From Candidatus Accumulibacter cognatus (GTDB lineage: Bacteria; Pseudomonadota; Gammaproteobacteria; Burkholderiales; Rhodocyclaceae), in assembly GCA_013414765.1 (NCBI GenBank), contig CP058708.1, positions 3,529,553-3,593,552 on the forward strand: a stretch of DNA of 64,000 bases, read 5' to 3'. Each line of letters opens with the position of its first letter. Within the stretch, counting starts at the first letter, position 1. The translations under genes and the position numbers were made by a program. The notes under the pieces were generated by a model that searched no databases, had not been told where the DNA came from, and saw only the letters and a list, made by a program, of their open reading frames with translations. Positions 6,334 through 44,485 of the stretch are shown here, piece after piece.

Positions 6334-6512
6334 CGTAACGGTCATGGCTTTGTGAGCCCCCTGGATGATGAAGTCCTGACCGTTACGTTACTATAGAAGT
6401 TGCGTCAGCGACTCACGACTCTCTCCTCTCCATTCGCGGGAGATGGGTCGGGGGAGAGGGAAATGGTCATGACTTTCATGATCGGGGGTGGCTGGAAAAG
6501 TCATGACCGTTA
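6334..6512. repeat. Dispersed palindromic repeat, copy 1 (P-Q-P arrangement)
   Basis: Starts 12 bases after the DUF29 stop codon. It holds a palindrome (module P) with perfect 11-base arms CGTAACGGTCA (6334-6344) and TGACCGTTACG (6377-6387). A GC-rich segment in reverse orientation (module Q, about 6396-6460, with TCAGCGACTCACGA) follows. A second P copy has arms GGTCATGACTTT (6465-6476) and AAGTCATGACC (6498-6508). Related copies are at 24060, 32729, 36260, 40052 and 44404. Seen directly in the sequence; a role as REP-like element or transcript end is inference. Confidence 0.8.
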
Positions 6513-6567
6513 GCCGCGATTATCCATAACCTGGCGTTCTTACGCCCGCTTTTGACCGGGAGAGACC

Positions 6568-7569
6568 ATGCTCGACAACAAGACGATTCTCATTACCGGC
6601 GGTACTGGTTCATTCGGTAAGCAGTTCGTGAAAACCATTCTGGCGCGCTATCAGCCGAAAAAGGTCATCATCTACTCACGCGATGAATTGAAGCAGTATG
6701 AAATGGCGCAGATTTTTGATGCGCCGCAGATGCGCTATTTCATTGGCGACGTGCGCGACCAGCCACGTCTCAGGCAGGCCATGGATGGGGTCGATCATGT
6801 GATCCACGCAGCGGCCCTGAAGCACGTGCCAGTCGCCGAATACAATCCGATAGAATGCATCAAGACGAACATTTATGGGGCCGAAAACGTGATCCAGGCC
6901 GCCATCGCCGCCGAAGTGGAACAGGTGATCGCCTTGTCGACTGACAAGGCAGCCAATCCGATCAACCTGTATGGTGCAACAAAACTGGCCTCCGACAAAT
7001 TGTTCGTCGCAGCGAACAATATCGTGGGTGCCCGCCGCACGCGGTTCTCGGTCGTTCGCTATGGCAATGTGGTTGGCTCGCGTGGATCGGTCATTCCCTT
7101 TTTCCAGAAGTTGCTGAAGCAGGGCGCCACCGAATTGCCGATTACGGATGAGCGTATGACCCGCTTCTGGATCACCCTGCAAAATGGGGTCGACTTTGTC
7201 ATCAGGAATTTTGCGCGCATGCATGGCGGCGAGATCTTCATTCCCAAGATTCCGTCGGCCACCATCCTCGACCTGGCCAAGGCCATTGCTCCGGACCTGC
7301 CACTGAAGATCATCGGCATTCGTCCTGGAGAAAAGCTGCATGAAACCATGTGCCCAGGCGACGATTCTCATCTGACCCTTGAATTTCATGACCATTTCGT
7401 GATCAAGCCAGCGATTTCGTTCACCCTGCAAGTCGATTACCAAAAGAATCGGCTGGGTGAGATCGGTGTCCCGGTAAGCGGTGGCTTTGAATACAGTTCC
7501 GGCACCAATCCCGAGTTCCTCGATGTTGCTGCCATTCGCGCATTGATCGCACAGGGACGCGAGCATTGA
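6568..7569 (+). CDS. pseB: UDP-N-acetylglucosamine 4,6-dehydratase (inverting)
   Basis: First enzyme of CMP-pseudaminic acid synthesis: it dehydrates and C5-epimerises UDP-GlcNAc to the 4-keto-6-deoxy-L-arabino-hexulose. The 333-residue short-chain dehydrogenase has the NAD(P)-binding 'TGGTGSFG' (about 10-17) and the active-site 'YGATK' with Y135 and K139. Sequence and length match PseB/FlaA1 proteins rather than the longer membrane-bound CapD/WbpM types. A GGGAG ribosome site precedes the ATG. It heads an operon in which pseC, pseF, pseG, pseI and pseH follow with overlaps or gaps under 10 bases. The operon is AT-richer than the genes to its right. Confidence 0.95.
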
Positions 7570-8711
7570 TTCCCTACGGTCGCCAATCGATTTCTGAAGA
7601 GGATATCGCGGCCGTCGTGGCCGTATTACGTTCGGACTGGATCACGCAGGGGCCCTGTATCGACGCTTTCGAACGCGCACTGGCAGCCTATTGCGGTGTG
7701 GCCCACGGGGTGGCGGTGGCCAATGCGACGGCAGCGCTGCACCTCGCCTGCCTGGCGCTCGGTGTCGGTCCTGGGGACTGGGTCTGGACCTCTCCGAACA
7801 CCTTCCTGGCTTCGGCCAATTGCGCCCTGTATTGTGGTGCCCAGGTCGACTTTGTCGACATCGACCCGCTGACCTACAACATCAGCGTGGCAGCGCTGGA
7901 AGAAAAACTGCGACAGGCCAGTTTCGATGGTGTGCTGCCGGCGGTGCTCATCCCGGTTCACTTCGCAGGCCAATCCTGCGACATGGAGAAGATCGGAGCG
8001 CTGGCACGGCAATACGGATGCAGGGTGATCGAGGATGCATCGCATGCGGTTGGCGCCGACTACCAGGCCGGCAAGGTCGGCAATTGCGCCTATAGCGACA
8101 TGACGGTGTTCAGTTTTCATCCGGTCAAGATATTGACCACCGCCGAAGGCGGCATGGTGATGACCAATAACTCGGCATTACGCCAGGCATTGCAGCGTCT
8201 TCGGTCACACGGGATGACACGCGACCCGGCCGATTTGCAGAACAGGCATGAAGGCGCCTGGTATTACGAACAGATCGAACTGGGCTACAATTACCGGATC
8301 ACCGATCTCCAGGCGGCACTAGGCCTCAGCCAGCTGGCAAGTCTGGGCAAATTCGTGGCACGCCGGCGCGAACTGGCCGCGCGCTACGACCGGCTGTTGG
8401 CCGACTTGCCGTTGGTGTTGCCGCGGCAGGCCGAATACGGCCGTTCGGCTTACCATCTATACCCGATCCAGGTTGCTTCCGAACAACGTCGTGTCGTCTT
8501 CGACGCACTCCGCGCCCAAGGCATCGGTGCCAATGTGCATTACCTTCCGGTCTATCTACAGCCCTATTACAGGATGCTTGGCTTTGGCGTCGGGAAGTGC
8601 CCGCAAGCCGAGCATTTCTATCGCGGCGCGATCAGTCTGCCCCTGTTCTATTCGATGACAGACGCTGAGCAGGACCAGGTAGTGGCTGCGCTATCGAATG
8701 CCCTGGCATGA
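7566..8711 (+). CDS. pseC: UDP-4-amino-4,6-dideoxy-N-acetyl-beta-L-altrosamine transaminase
   Basis: PLP-dependent aminotransferase that adds the 4-amino group to the PseB product, using glutamate. The 381-residue protein belongs to the DegT/DnrJ/EryC1/StrS fold. It opens with the PseC-typical '[13 protein letters not shown]', and the PLP lysine is K188 in '[13 protein letters not shown]'. The start is a TTG at 7566 that overlaps the pseB stop (TTGA), which fits the N-terminus of known PseC proteins exactly and implies translational coupling. No ATG start would preserve the conserved N-terminal motif. The next gene, pseF, again overlaps by four bases. Confidence 0.94.
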
Positions 8712-42764: not shown

Positions 42765-43387
42765 GCCCGCGTTCCCGCAATGCAGCCTTTCAGGCACCGC
42801 AACCTCCCCCTGCGGCACCCATCAGCGAGAACCCGGCAGTGTGCCTGGAGTCGATGTTTCTGCATATCTGGACTACCAGCATGCGCGATCTGCCTTTTGT
42901 CAACGCCGCCTTGTCGGTTGAGGCGGTCGGCTTTCGCCGCTGGAATTCCAGCAAAGCGTCCGTGGTCGACCCGCCGCTTCTGGCAGCGAGTACCAGTGAT
43001 GTGGGCTGTGCATTGGGTGACTGGGTGGGCGCGGTGATTACACCTTGGTTCATCAATCTTTTTGTCCTGCCCGGCGGCGGCAACCTGTGGTCCGACCGAC
43101 GTTCCGGCGAGCGCTGCCAGATTAATTTCCCAATTGGTCCGCTGGAGTTCATAGCGGATTACAGCCCATCAGCAGTGATTCCCTCCTACCAGTATTGTCC
43201 GTTGTTCGCTCCTCCCAGCCAGATCGCCTCCCAGGCCGCCGCGCGCGCCGCCGCCATGGCCGCACTTGATGCAATGTTCAGAACACTCGGCGAAGCTTCG
43301 GGTCCTGCTTTGAATTCTGTCAGCACTACGACCGTGCCCACGGATCCCCTTCGGCGTGCATTCTTCCGTCGCGTCGTCCGACGCTGA
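42761..43387 (+). CDS. hybE: [NiFe]-hydrogenase assembly chaperone HybE
   Basis: Chaperone that helps pair HybO and HybC before Tat export. From ATG 42761 (ATGA overlap with the hybG-like gene) it has 208 residues. The core 'DLPFVNAALSVEAVGFRRW', 'LGDWVGAVITPWFINLFVLPGG' and 'FPIGPLEFIADY' matches HybE/HupJ-related proteins. The first 25 residues are Pro/Ala-rich and the last 30 low in similarity. It is the last gene of the operon, and the next gene starts 187 bases later. Confidence 0.87.
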   Translation: MSPRSRNAAFQAPQPPPAAPISENPAVCLESMFLHIWTTSMRDLPFVNAALSVEAVGFRRWNSSKASVVDPPLLAASTSDVGCALGDWVGAVITPWFINLFVLPGGGNLWSDRRSGERCQINFPIGPLEFIADYSPSAVIPSYQYCPLFAPPSQIASQAAARAAAMAALDAMFRTLGEASGPALNSVSTTTVPTDPLRRAFFRRVVRR

Positions 43388-43574
43388 GCGCACGCCTCGC
43401 GGCGATGAGTTGTTCGGGAGTAGAAACTCTCGGCCACTGATGCCACAGCCTGTTGCGCAAGGCATTCCATTCAGGCCTGTGAACCTGTTCCCTCATGGTG
43501 ATTCGGGGTTTACAATGGCCATTCCCCGGATCTGGTGACCCCCTTCAACTCTTTTCTGCATATTCGGTGCCACC

Positions 43575-44405
43575 ATGATGCATTTCCTGGCCGATGATAA
43601 CGAAGTGATCCACCTGCAGGTGTCCGGCAAAGGCTCGCCGATCATCATGTTGCACGGCTGGACTGCCAGCCACCGCGAGTGGTCGCCATTTATTGACCAG
43701 CTGACGCCACATCATCGGGTCTTCCGCTGGGACGCCCGTGGACATGGTGGGCATCGACTGACGCAAGAGACCGTTCCAACGGTGCAGCGAATGGCGCAAG
43801 ACCTTCGTAATCTGATCGAATACTATCATCTGGACGATTTGGTGGCCGTCGGCCACTCCATGGGCGCCCTGACCCTGTGGCAGTACATCAAGGAGCATGG
43901 CTGCGAAAAGCTGCGCAAGGTCTGCTTCCTGGACCAGTCACCAAAACTTCTGACCGATTCTGAATGGTGCGATGGCATCTACGGCGATTTCGACCAGGAC
44001 CGTTCAGCGACTTTCCTGAGCCATCTCCAGACCGACTTCACGGAATCCGTTCTCCTGCTGGGTGCAATGGGTCTCAACGCGAGCGCCCGGGAGAAGTATC
44101 ACACGGGCTCGCGGGGCCTCGACAAGGCACGGCAATGGCTGAACGAACAGGATCCGGCCCCGCTGATTGCCTGCTGGGAAAGCCTGACCGAAGCCGACTA
44201 TCGAGAAACCCTCGAGAGAATCGACATTCCTGCCCTGCTGGTCTATGGCGGTGCCAGCAATTACTACCGCAGCGAGACCGCACACTACGTTCATAACAAG
44301 ATCGCCAACGCGGTACTACACATCTACGAAGGCACCGATCACTCGCCACACCAATGGGATCGCGAGCGCTTCGTTCGTGATTTGCTTGACTTCATCGATG
44401 CCTGA
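43575..44405 (+). CDS. Alpha/beta hydrolase
   Basis: A 276-residue soluble hydrolase of the epoxide-hydrolase/haloperoxidase-like group. It has the oxyanion motif 'MLHGWTASHREW' (about 26-37), the nucleophile elbow 'AVGHSMGALTL' with the serine near 97, the acid near 'YGGASNYY', and the catalytic histidine in 'GTDHSPHQWDRERF'. No signal peptide. The substrate is unknown. It lies alone between the hydrogenase operon and the TetR gene, and its stop codon is followed directly by a dispersed repeat. Confidence 0.88.
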   Translation: MMHFLADDNEVIHLQVSGKGSPIIMLHGWTASHREWSPFIDQLTPHHRVFRWDARGHGGHRLTQETVPTVQRMAQDLRNLIEYYHLDDLVAVGHSMGALTLWQYIKEHGCEKLRKVCFLDQSPKLLTDSEWCDGIYGDFDQDRSATFLSHLQTDFTESVLLLGAMGLNASAREKYHTGSRGLDKARQWLNEQDPAPLIACWESLTEADYRETLERIDIPALLVYGGASNYYRSETAHYVHNKIANAVLHIYEGTDHSPHQWDRERFVRDLLDFIDA

Positions 44406-44485
44406 CGGTCATGATTTTTCCAGGTGCCCCCGTCATGAATGTCATGGCCGTTTCCCTCTTCCCAGACTCCTTGACGGGGAAGCGG
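44404..44485. repeat. Dispersed palindromic repeat, copy 6 (P and degenerate Q)
   Basis: Begins at the hydrolase stop: GACGGTCATGATTTTTCC (44404-44421) with partner arm ATGTCATGGCCGTTT (about 44439-44453). A degraded GC-rich part (CTCTTCCCAGACTCCTTGAC) follows. The repeat sits before the 3' end of the convergent TetR gene. Confidence 0.72.

Follow-up and report, generated by a model that had tools for sequence, protein, structure and literature searches.

Why do copies of one palindromic repeat stand on stop codons, gene after gene, in a bacterial genome? The question is raised by a stretch of 64,000 nt (the window: positions 3,529,553-3,593,552 of the single-contig 5.17 Mb genome of Candidatus Accumulibacter cognatus, hereafter the own genome, G000), in which six copies of a repeat made of two hairpins, P and Q, had been noted and likened to repetitive extragenic palindromes (REPs) and bacterial interspersed mosaic elements (BIMEs). 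The repeats are a real, abundant and mobile REP/BIME-like palindromic family enriched at gene ends. The data establish the family, its ends, its insertion at polymorphic sites, its target, its coincidence with stop codons and the contrast between its two subfamilies, all of which are, in our judgement, probably best explained by a non-autonomous IS200/IS605-like element whose target word happens to contain stop codons.

A family of elements with two unlike ends

All six palindromes were confirmed where they had been reported, at frequencies above chance: the Q core has 5 matches in the window at up to three mismatches (0.26 expected) and the P arm 18 (3.9 expected). Over the whole 5.17 Mb there are 84 Q matches with at most one mismatch (backwards control, 0) and 94 P matches with at most two (control, 1), which puts the number of copies in the scores. 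Matches are not the same as copies: an unrelated palindrome at 1,880,384 accounts for two of the Q matches, one on each strand, and a few P matches are paired arms of a single copy. The exact Q pattern is present in 12 of 24 other Accumulibacter genomes (up to 94 matches) and in 0 of 16 genomes of other genera. Identity to the nearest copy has a median of 86% and a maximum of 97.6%, with 11 of 69 measured copies at 95% or above, so that both old and rather recent insertions are represented. Viral contigs gave no exact match to one 30-nt pattern of the element, Rfam at gathering thresholds found one tRNA and nothing else in the window, and full-text searches of the literature, judged by titles and the starts of abstracts, returned no paper on this repeat.

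Within 433 kb of own-genome DNA we found 135 match clusters, from which 71 P..Q pairs were aligned; one was a duplicate, leaving 70 unique copies, each with P on the left and Q on the right in fixed orientation. The spacing from P to Q is mostly about 90 nt (range 57-246 nt, too short for a transposase gene), the longer values occurring where GC-rich blocks are inserted mid-element. P and Q are thus the left and right hairpins of one non-coding element of about 120 nt: the two-part build originally proposed is real, but its parts are not the free modules they were taken for. The consensus folds into three hairpins, namely P (15-16 pairs), a GC stem (10 pairs) and Q, at -59 kcal/mol as RNA, and four of the window copies fold better as DNA than their shuffles (z -2.7 to -6.1). 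By consensus and folds, the palindromes are near-terminal and the element lacks terminal inverted repeats. Its ends are sharp, YTRA/CGGTCATGAC...CACATTAA/, conservation beginning and stopping abruptly against unconserved flanks; among the 71 pairs the left end reads C63 T55 A62 A68, then CGG, and the right end TTAA, each position being held in 58-63. The P-only copies that we read were mostly truncated or decayed, or belonged to a subfamily (B, below) missed by the Q pattern. Optional GC-rich blocks with nested palindromes occur between P and Q, singly or together (G000:C1:3461244, 604616, 554954), and may be further nested elements.

The mode of insertion could be read from filled and empty sites, with both junctions comparable at four of them. 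At 32729 the relative G043 is empty (TTTGA/CTTCAACC), and the own genome is filled (TTTGA/CGGTCATG...ACATTAA/CTCCAACC), as is the relative G019; a left flank of TTGA against a right end of TTAA is not a target-site duplication. At 40052 the own genome and G019 are filled and 15 relatives are empty, showing CTAA, CTGA or CTAG followed directly by the leader of the downstream gene. At 34593 G019 holds a subfamily B copy where the own genome and G043 are empty, and at 13533, empty in the own genome, G019 has a truncated inverted copy with both junctions and G043 an inverted copy broken by an assembly gap. The left junction only is given by 16436 (own genome and G043 empty, G019 filled), where the right flanks differ. 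No target duplication was found at any of the filled and empty sites compared. Insertion therefore takes place 3' of a tetranucleotide without duplication, as in IS200/IS605-type transposition and in palindrome-associated transposable elements (PATEs). The tetranucleotide is YTRA in 51 of the 70 own copies and CTAA in 41, and C is over-represented directly to the right of the element (31 of 70, P = 0.01). Head-to-tail copies in the relatives G014 and G022 join as CACATTAA/CGGTCATGAC, looking as if the TTAA of one copy had served as the target of the next.

At 32729, compared with L273 and L299, G019 shares the copy and G043, which matches the window there at about 92-95%, lacks it; lineage sorting, recombination and precise excision are alternative accounts of this distribution.

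Target choice and stop codons

Genes were called with our own codon-usage script, and the Fisher tests treat copies as independent. The claim that every copy begins at, in or shortly after a stop codon is true of the six in the window and not of the genome. There, of the 70 full copies, 39 are found no more than 15 nt from the 3' end of a gene and 27 coincide exactly with a stop (25 after removal of the element and re-calling of genes), and 7 have only a gene start nearby. In 20 copies (18 with the element removed) the upstream gene has the left tetramer as its in-frame stop. In 9 of the 70, with or without removal, a gene on the opposite strand terminates on the TTAA of the element, always at one offset; the 27 copies are those that show one or the other. 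TAA can be read in CTAA and TAG in its complement, TTAG, which predicts that the stops of these right-hand genes originally lay inside the target; with the element removed, all nine do terminate at a stop within it.

Copies behind CTAA can be compared with CTAA sites that remain unoccupied. They are on stops in 19 of 41 cases, vs. 21 of 93 unoccupied non-genic sites (P = 0.008), and inside a gene, once the element is removed, in 2 of 41, vs. 100 of 193 unoccupied sites in the same DNA (P = 4e-9). We conclude that gene-end placement is mainly an effect of the target together with purifying selection, and that it is not evidence of a terminator or mRNA-stabilizer role; a secondary effect on mRNA is possible. 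The word CTAA is itself very rare, those 193 sites being all that is unoccupied on both strands of the 433 kb, vs. 2,500 for the reversed word AATC.

A sister subfamily with another target serves as a natural control. Subfamily B has the P loop GCAAGACACCCCCGATGATG instead of the CCAGGCACCCCCGATCATG of the main subfamily, A, a shortened Q loop and a right end that is mostly GTAA; it is recent in G019 and also occurs in the own genome, in G043 and, diverged, in G004. Its left flank is CAAA in 19 of the 23 copies with a left end, the other 7 of 30 B loci, without a left end within 330 nt, being excluded from this count. Exactly on a stop we find 0 of 17 B copies vs. 20 of 59 A copies (own genome and relatives, P = 0.004), a comparison that is partly true by definition because CAAA is no stop codon; the count within 30 nt after a stop is free of this circularity (2 of 17 vs. 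27 of 59, P = 0.012), and the A excess in it is due to the exact cases, outside which A stands at 7 of 39, much like B. The switch of target to CAAA goes with loss of the gene-end bias. REP-like repeats at gene 3' ends are usually argued from function, in terms of mRNA stability or termination. Here are two sister subfamilies, of which the one with a stop-codon target word lies on stop codons and the one with a non-stop word does not, and for other REP-like families at gene 3' ends target choice is what should be ruled out before anything else. The pair also offers a compact system in which to study natural target change by what would be a single-strand mobile element. At two G019 loci (L330, L337) a shared foreign sequence interrupts the middle stem of the B copy; its end looks like the C-terminus of an IS110-family transposase.

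The target is tracked by one base of the P loop, in the motif GAT[C/G]AT. Among 138 P-like matches (50 of them with neither loop motif, and some not true copies), those with C have CTAA in 41 of 64 and CAAA in 1, and those with G have CAAA in 17 of 24 and CTAA in 1. In mixed copies it is this base that the target follows, and neither the left loop nor the type of Q: all 4 of those combining GCAAGA with C have YTRA, and CTAA precedes the two copies in which an A-type P is joined to a B-type Q. Exceptions are two copies with GCAAGA, G and an A-type Q, which have CTAA and CGAA. Because most B copies come from a single genome (12 of 17 from G019), one ancestral event could have created the association. 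A tentative reading, which we regard as possible while leaning against it, is that the left hairpin carries the target code: a change from GATCAT to GATGAT would have re-aimed the family from CTAA to CAAA, making A a 'stop-codon homing' transposon and B a retargeting experiment of nature, with the guide placed differently from those of IS608 and the REPs. IS608 can be re-aimed by alterations to the guide sequence within it, and has a preference for C at +1 (PMC5934647, as excerpted).

Proposed mechanism, rival explanations and known relatives

We propose that the element, non-autonomous and about 120 nt long, would move in the single-strand, tetranucleotide-guided fashion of IS200/IS605. P and Q would be its two ends, with the GC-rich stem between them, and it would insert 3' of a tetranucleotide, preferably CTAA but with YTRA tolerated, that remains in the left flank, its own TTAA closing the right end. 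Given the stops in CTAA and TTAG and the TTAA that the element brings, insertion at a gene end would be costless in either orientation, and with in-gene insertions mostly purged, copies would end up on stop codons; in the sister subfamily the target would have switched to CAAA and the bias would have been lost. The insertion pattern and the hairpin ends lead us to infer a Y1/HUH enzyme acting in trans and a single-strand intermediate; the P base would help to set the target.

Several observations weigh against this proposal. Pfam Y1_Tnp and NCBIfam NF047646 searches over 28 Accumulibacter genomes matched in 25 of them with each model, the own genome included, and among the 96 loci fetched no Y1 gene or gene for a REP-associated tyrosine transposase (RAYT) is flanked by P and Q (the loci include duplicates and many are cut by contig ends, so that a copy beyond the end would be missed). 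Twenty P-to-Q spacers longer than 330 nt in relatives contained no RAYT-like match, and were not translated for other genes. P starts at the target itself, so that a guide of the IS608 type would have no space 5' of the left hairpin. Lagging-strand targeting has been reported for IS608 and ISDra2, so that an orientation bias would be expected, and we saw none between replichores (P = 0.6-1.0, with origin and terminus guessed from a weak skew in sampled pieces). Stops are hit by 46% of CTAA copies vs. 23% of free CTAA sites, which target choice alone does not explain; the excess, two-fold, persists when gene avoidance is allowed for as well. With the element taken out, 7 of the 70 junctions fall in a called open reading frame (ORF), three of them no more than 63 nt from its end (3450475, 3501232, 3569604) and four deep inside (G000:C1, 440483, 548269, 1733102, 3014552); the latter may be interrupted genes, or some may be accidental fusions of neighboring frames. 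An interim statement that no copy lies inside a gene had relied on frames called with the element in place and was dropped. Finally, the B copies, being mostly from G019, are not independent, and the sole B site with empty relatives reads CCAA in the two empties and CAAA when filled.

The strongest rival, though we think it unlikely, is that P and Q are two REPs in a BIME-like unit (a REP/REPIN family) moved by a RAYT encoded elsewhere, which was also the route of spread originally predicted. REPs are likewise palindromic, intergenic and found at gene ends, RAYT matches are as widespread as noted above and include two tandem canonical RAYTs in the own genome, and the arms of an inverted repeat flanking a RAYT in G017 (L268, GGTCTTGACTTTTGCCAGGC) resemble the P arm. 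However, the Q hairpin is not preceded by GTAG or GTGG (the consensus before the Q stem is CGTG), and the target precedes P. The canonical RAYTs of the own genome bear GTAGGTTGGGCT...AGCCCAAC palindromes of the GTAG type instead, and P/Q occur in just two Y1/RAYT neighborhoods of the 96 loci (in G014 and G019), flanking the gene in neither. The high-copy genomes G014, G022 and G009 have no RAYT above the NF047646 cut-off. Spread by a RAYT is thus not confirmed by the 96 loci. The Y1/RAYT flanks that we viewed bear other inverted repeats (GGGGTCAGGTCTT-type, and REPs of the GTAG type), the IS200-type TnpA loci whose ends were read (of L242-L246 and L061) have CCCCCGGC...GCCGGGG hairpins, and the P-only copies of the own genome revealed no long P...Q element with a gene inside. 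The G014 RAYT beside a P-Q copy (L258) was considered as a carrier and rejected: it has GAGCCTGG-type ends of its own, and its neighbor is probably a chance insertion.

Two further RAYT loci of the own genome deserve mention. The two tandem canonical RAYTs lie at G000:C1:4502187-4503271 (L384, L407; NF047646, about 200 bits), with GTAG-type palindromes GTAGGTTGGGCTGAGCTTCGCGAAGCCCAAC alongside, and make up an ordinary REP/RAYT system separate from the P/Q family. Two identical segments of 3.3 kb, at a distance of 7.6 kb (G000:C1:3399842-3403165 and 3407490-3410813; L062, L063) each hold a RAYT-like gene with a tandem array of the GGCCTGACCCCGGCCTTGC unit upstream.

That the copies are functional 3'-end elements, kept by selection for termination or mRNA stability, appears to us quite improbable. 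Their proximity to gene 3' ends, the doubled frequency of stops at occupied CTAA sites and the stable RNA fold are what such elements would show, and some paired change is present as well. Covariation was counted, on a hand-set structure, in 69 sequences with P-to-Q spacing of 75-100 nt (19 from relatives), RNAalifold on the gapped alignment having missed P and most of Q. The middle stem has 40 doubly changed cells vs. a shuffle maximum of 30, partly reflecting subfamily differences; P is marginal, with 8 doubly changed pairs (shuffle maximum 7) but 10 cells (maximum 11), and Q, with 1 cell (maximum 3), is not above shuffles. Of the compensatory changes expected in the hairpin arms there is therefore little in P and none in Q. 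The proposed role as transcript ends fares no better: in 32-45 kb none of the copies is overlapped by a terminator-like site (the scan allows loops of 3-8 nt only), 10 of the 70 copies lie between divergent genes, gene-orientation context not differing from that of element-free gaps (P = 0.24), subfamily B has no gene-end bias, and 12 of 24 congeners have no exact Q match.

A classical miniature inverted-repeat transposable element (MITE) moved by a DDE transposase, with TAA (3 bp) or TA duplicated at the target, is very improbable: TAA does stand on both sides at CTAA sites (C TAA CGG...CAT TAA), resembling a 3-bp duplication, but this reading is contradicted by 32729, where the left flank is TTGA both empty and filled and the right end TTAA, by six copies with CTGA or TTGA on the left of which one only has ...TGA on the right, by subfamily B with CAAA left and GTAA right, and by ends that are not inverted repeats of each other.

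Returning to the IS200/IS605-like reading, we compared the family with known systems as these are described in excerpts of the cited papers. PATEs, from the archaeon Haloquadratum (PMC3119063), are the nearest class of element, sharing transposase-free size, near-terminal palindromes without terminal inverted repeats, absence of target duplication, strain-specific insertions and terminal-only derivatives. The present family differs in its unlike left and right palindromes, its third GC stem and optional middle blocks, the coincidence of its target with stop codons and its beta-proteobacterial host; in the genomes searched, moreover, no IS605-type element with matching ends was found. IS608 and the IS200/IS605 group (PMC5934647) are alike in inserting 3' of a left-flank tetranucleotide with a tetranucleotide of their own closing the right end, and IS608 also in its subterminal hairpins, a target that can be reset in the DNA and C at +1. 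Here, unlike IS608, the element has no transposase gene, its left hairpin begins directly at the target, without the classic guide position, the target is CTAA or CAAA rather than TTAC, and no replichore bias was seen. The IS605B stem loops of Borrelia plasmids (PMC2775950) are likewise transposase-less IS605-type ends right behind genes, in that case lipoprotein genes whose last codons they overlap, but they are single end hairpins of a known transposon and not a two-ended family with its own target word.

REP, BIME and REPIN sequences with their RAYTs (PMC2817692, PMC3733652, PMC8266576) share palindromic form, intergenic position, high copy number and nearness to gene 3' ends, and GTAG REP ends often provide flanking ORFs with a TAG stop (PMC3733652). 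The present family has no GTAG/GTGG or CGTC tag and no RAYT flanked by its palindromes, is an asymmetric single element and not a palindrome or inverted pair, and has its insertion site directly shown. The MITEs NEMIS, RUP and ERIC, as described in PMC3733652, are also small, non-coding, hairpin-forming mobile repeats near genes, but have terminal inverted repeats, where here we find neither inverted ends nor target duplication. The excerpt of that paper credits A. phosphatis with two TIR-type tyrosine transposases and no TIR repeats.

Copies and empty sites in the window

The window contains both copies and empty sites (Table 1), and several units singled out by the original prediction read differently once the ends of the element are known. 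The 'P-Q-P' at 6334 resolves into a right-end remnant, a truncated copy and an inverted full copy. The 'Q alone' at 24060 has indeed lost P but has retained a CTAA target, which is the gene's stop, and the 'Q reversed' at 36260, likewise without P, is inverted, so that the TTAA of its right end provides the stop of its gene.

Table 1. Element copies, their targets and empty sites in the window (window coordinates)
Feature	Position	Strand	Remark
CTGA, stop codon of upstream gene (5807..6322)	6319..6322	+	
Right-end remnant CGACTTTCACCGTAA of a lost copy; GTAA directly 5' of next copy	6324..6338	+	
Truncated copy, P hairpin only	6339..6382	+	
Full inverted element, Q end 6388, P end 6509	6388..6509	-	DNA fold z -3.2
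Target CTAA (TTAG on +) of inverted copy	6510..6513	-	
Empty site TTAA (stop TAA); filled in G019 and G043	13530..13533		
Empty site TTAG (stop TAG); G019 has CTAA/element	16433..16436	+	
Target CTAA, stop TAA of gene 22978..24054	24051..24054	+	
Element that has lost its P hairpin but retains the middle GC stem and the right end, Q	24055..24132	+	
Target TTGA, stop TGA of gene 31880..32728; empty in relative G043	32725..32728	+	
Full element, subfamily A (CGGTCATG...ACATTAA)	32729..32842	+	
Empty site CCAA (non-stop); G019 has subfamily B element behind CAAA	34590..34593	+	
Inverted P-less copy; TTAA (36255-36258) is stop TAA of gene 34657..36258	36255..36311	-	
Target, now CCAA; CTAA, CTGA or CTAG (stop triplet) in 15 empty-site relatives	40050..40053	+	
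Full element, subfamily A	40054..40161	+	
Target CTGA, stop TGA of gene 43575..44405	44402..44405	+	
Copy with intact P hairpin and decayed right part	44406..44480	+	right limit approximate

The subfamily A copy at 40054..40161 lies between a hydrogenase-cluster gene (38878..40062) and the gene for the large subunit of a [NiFe] hydrogenase, whose product has 91% identity to the A. aalborgensis and A. conexus homologues, in a comparison from which the entry for the window itself may be absent. With its target mutated to CCAA (window 40050-40062), the upstream hydrogenase-cluster gene has lost its stop and reads into the element as far as a TGA.

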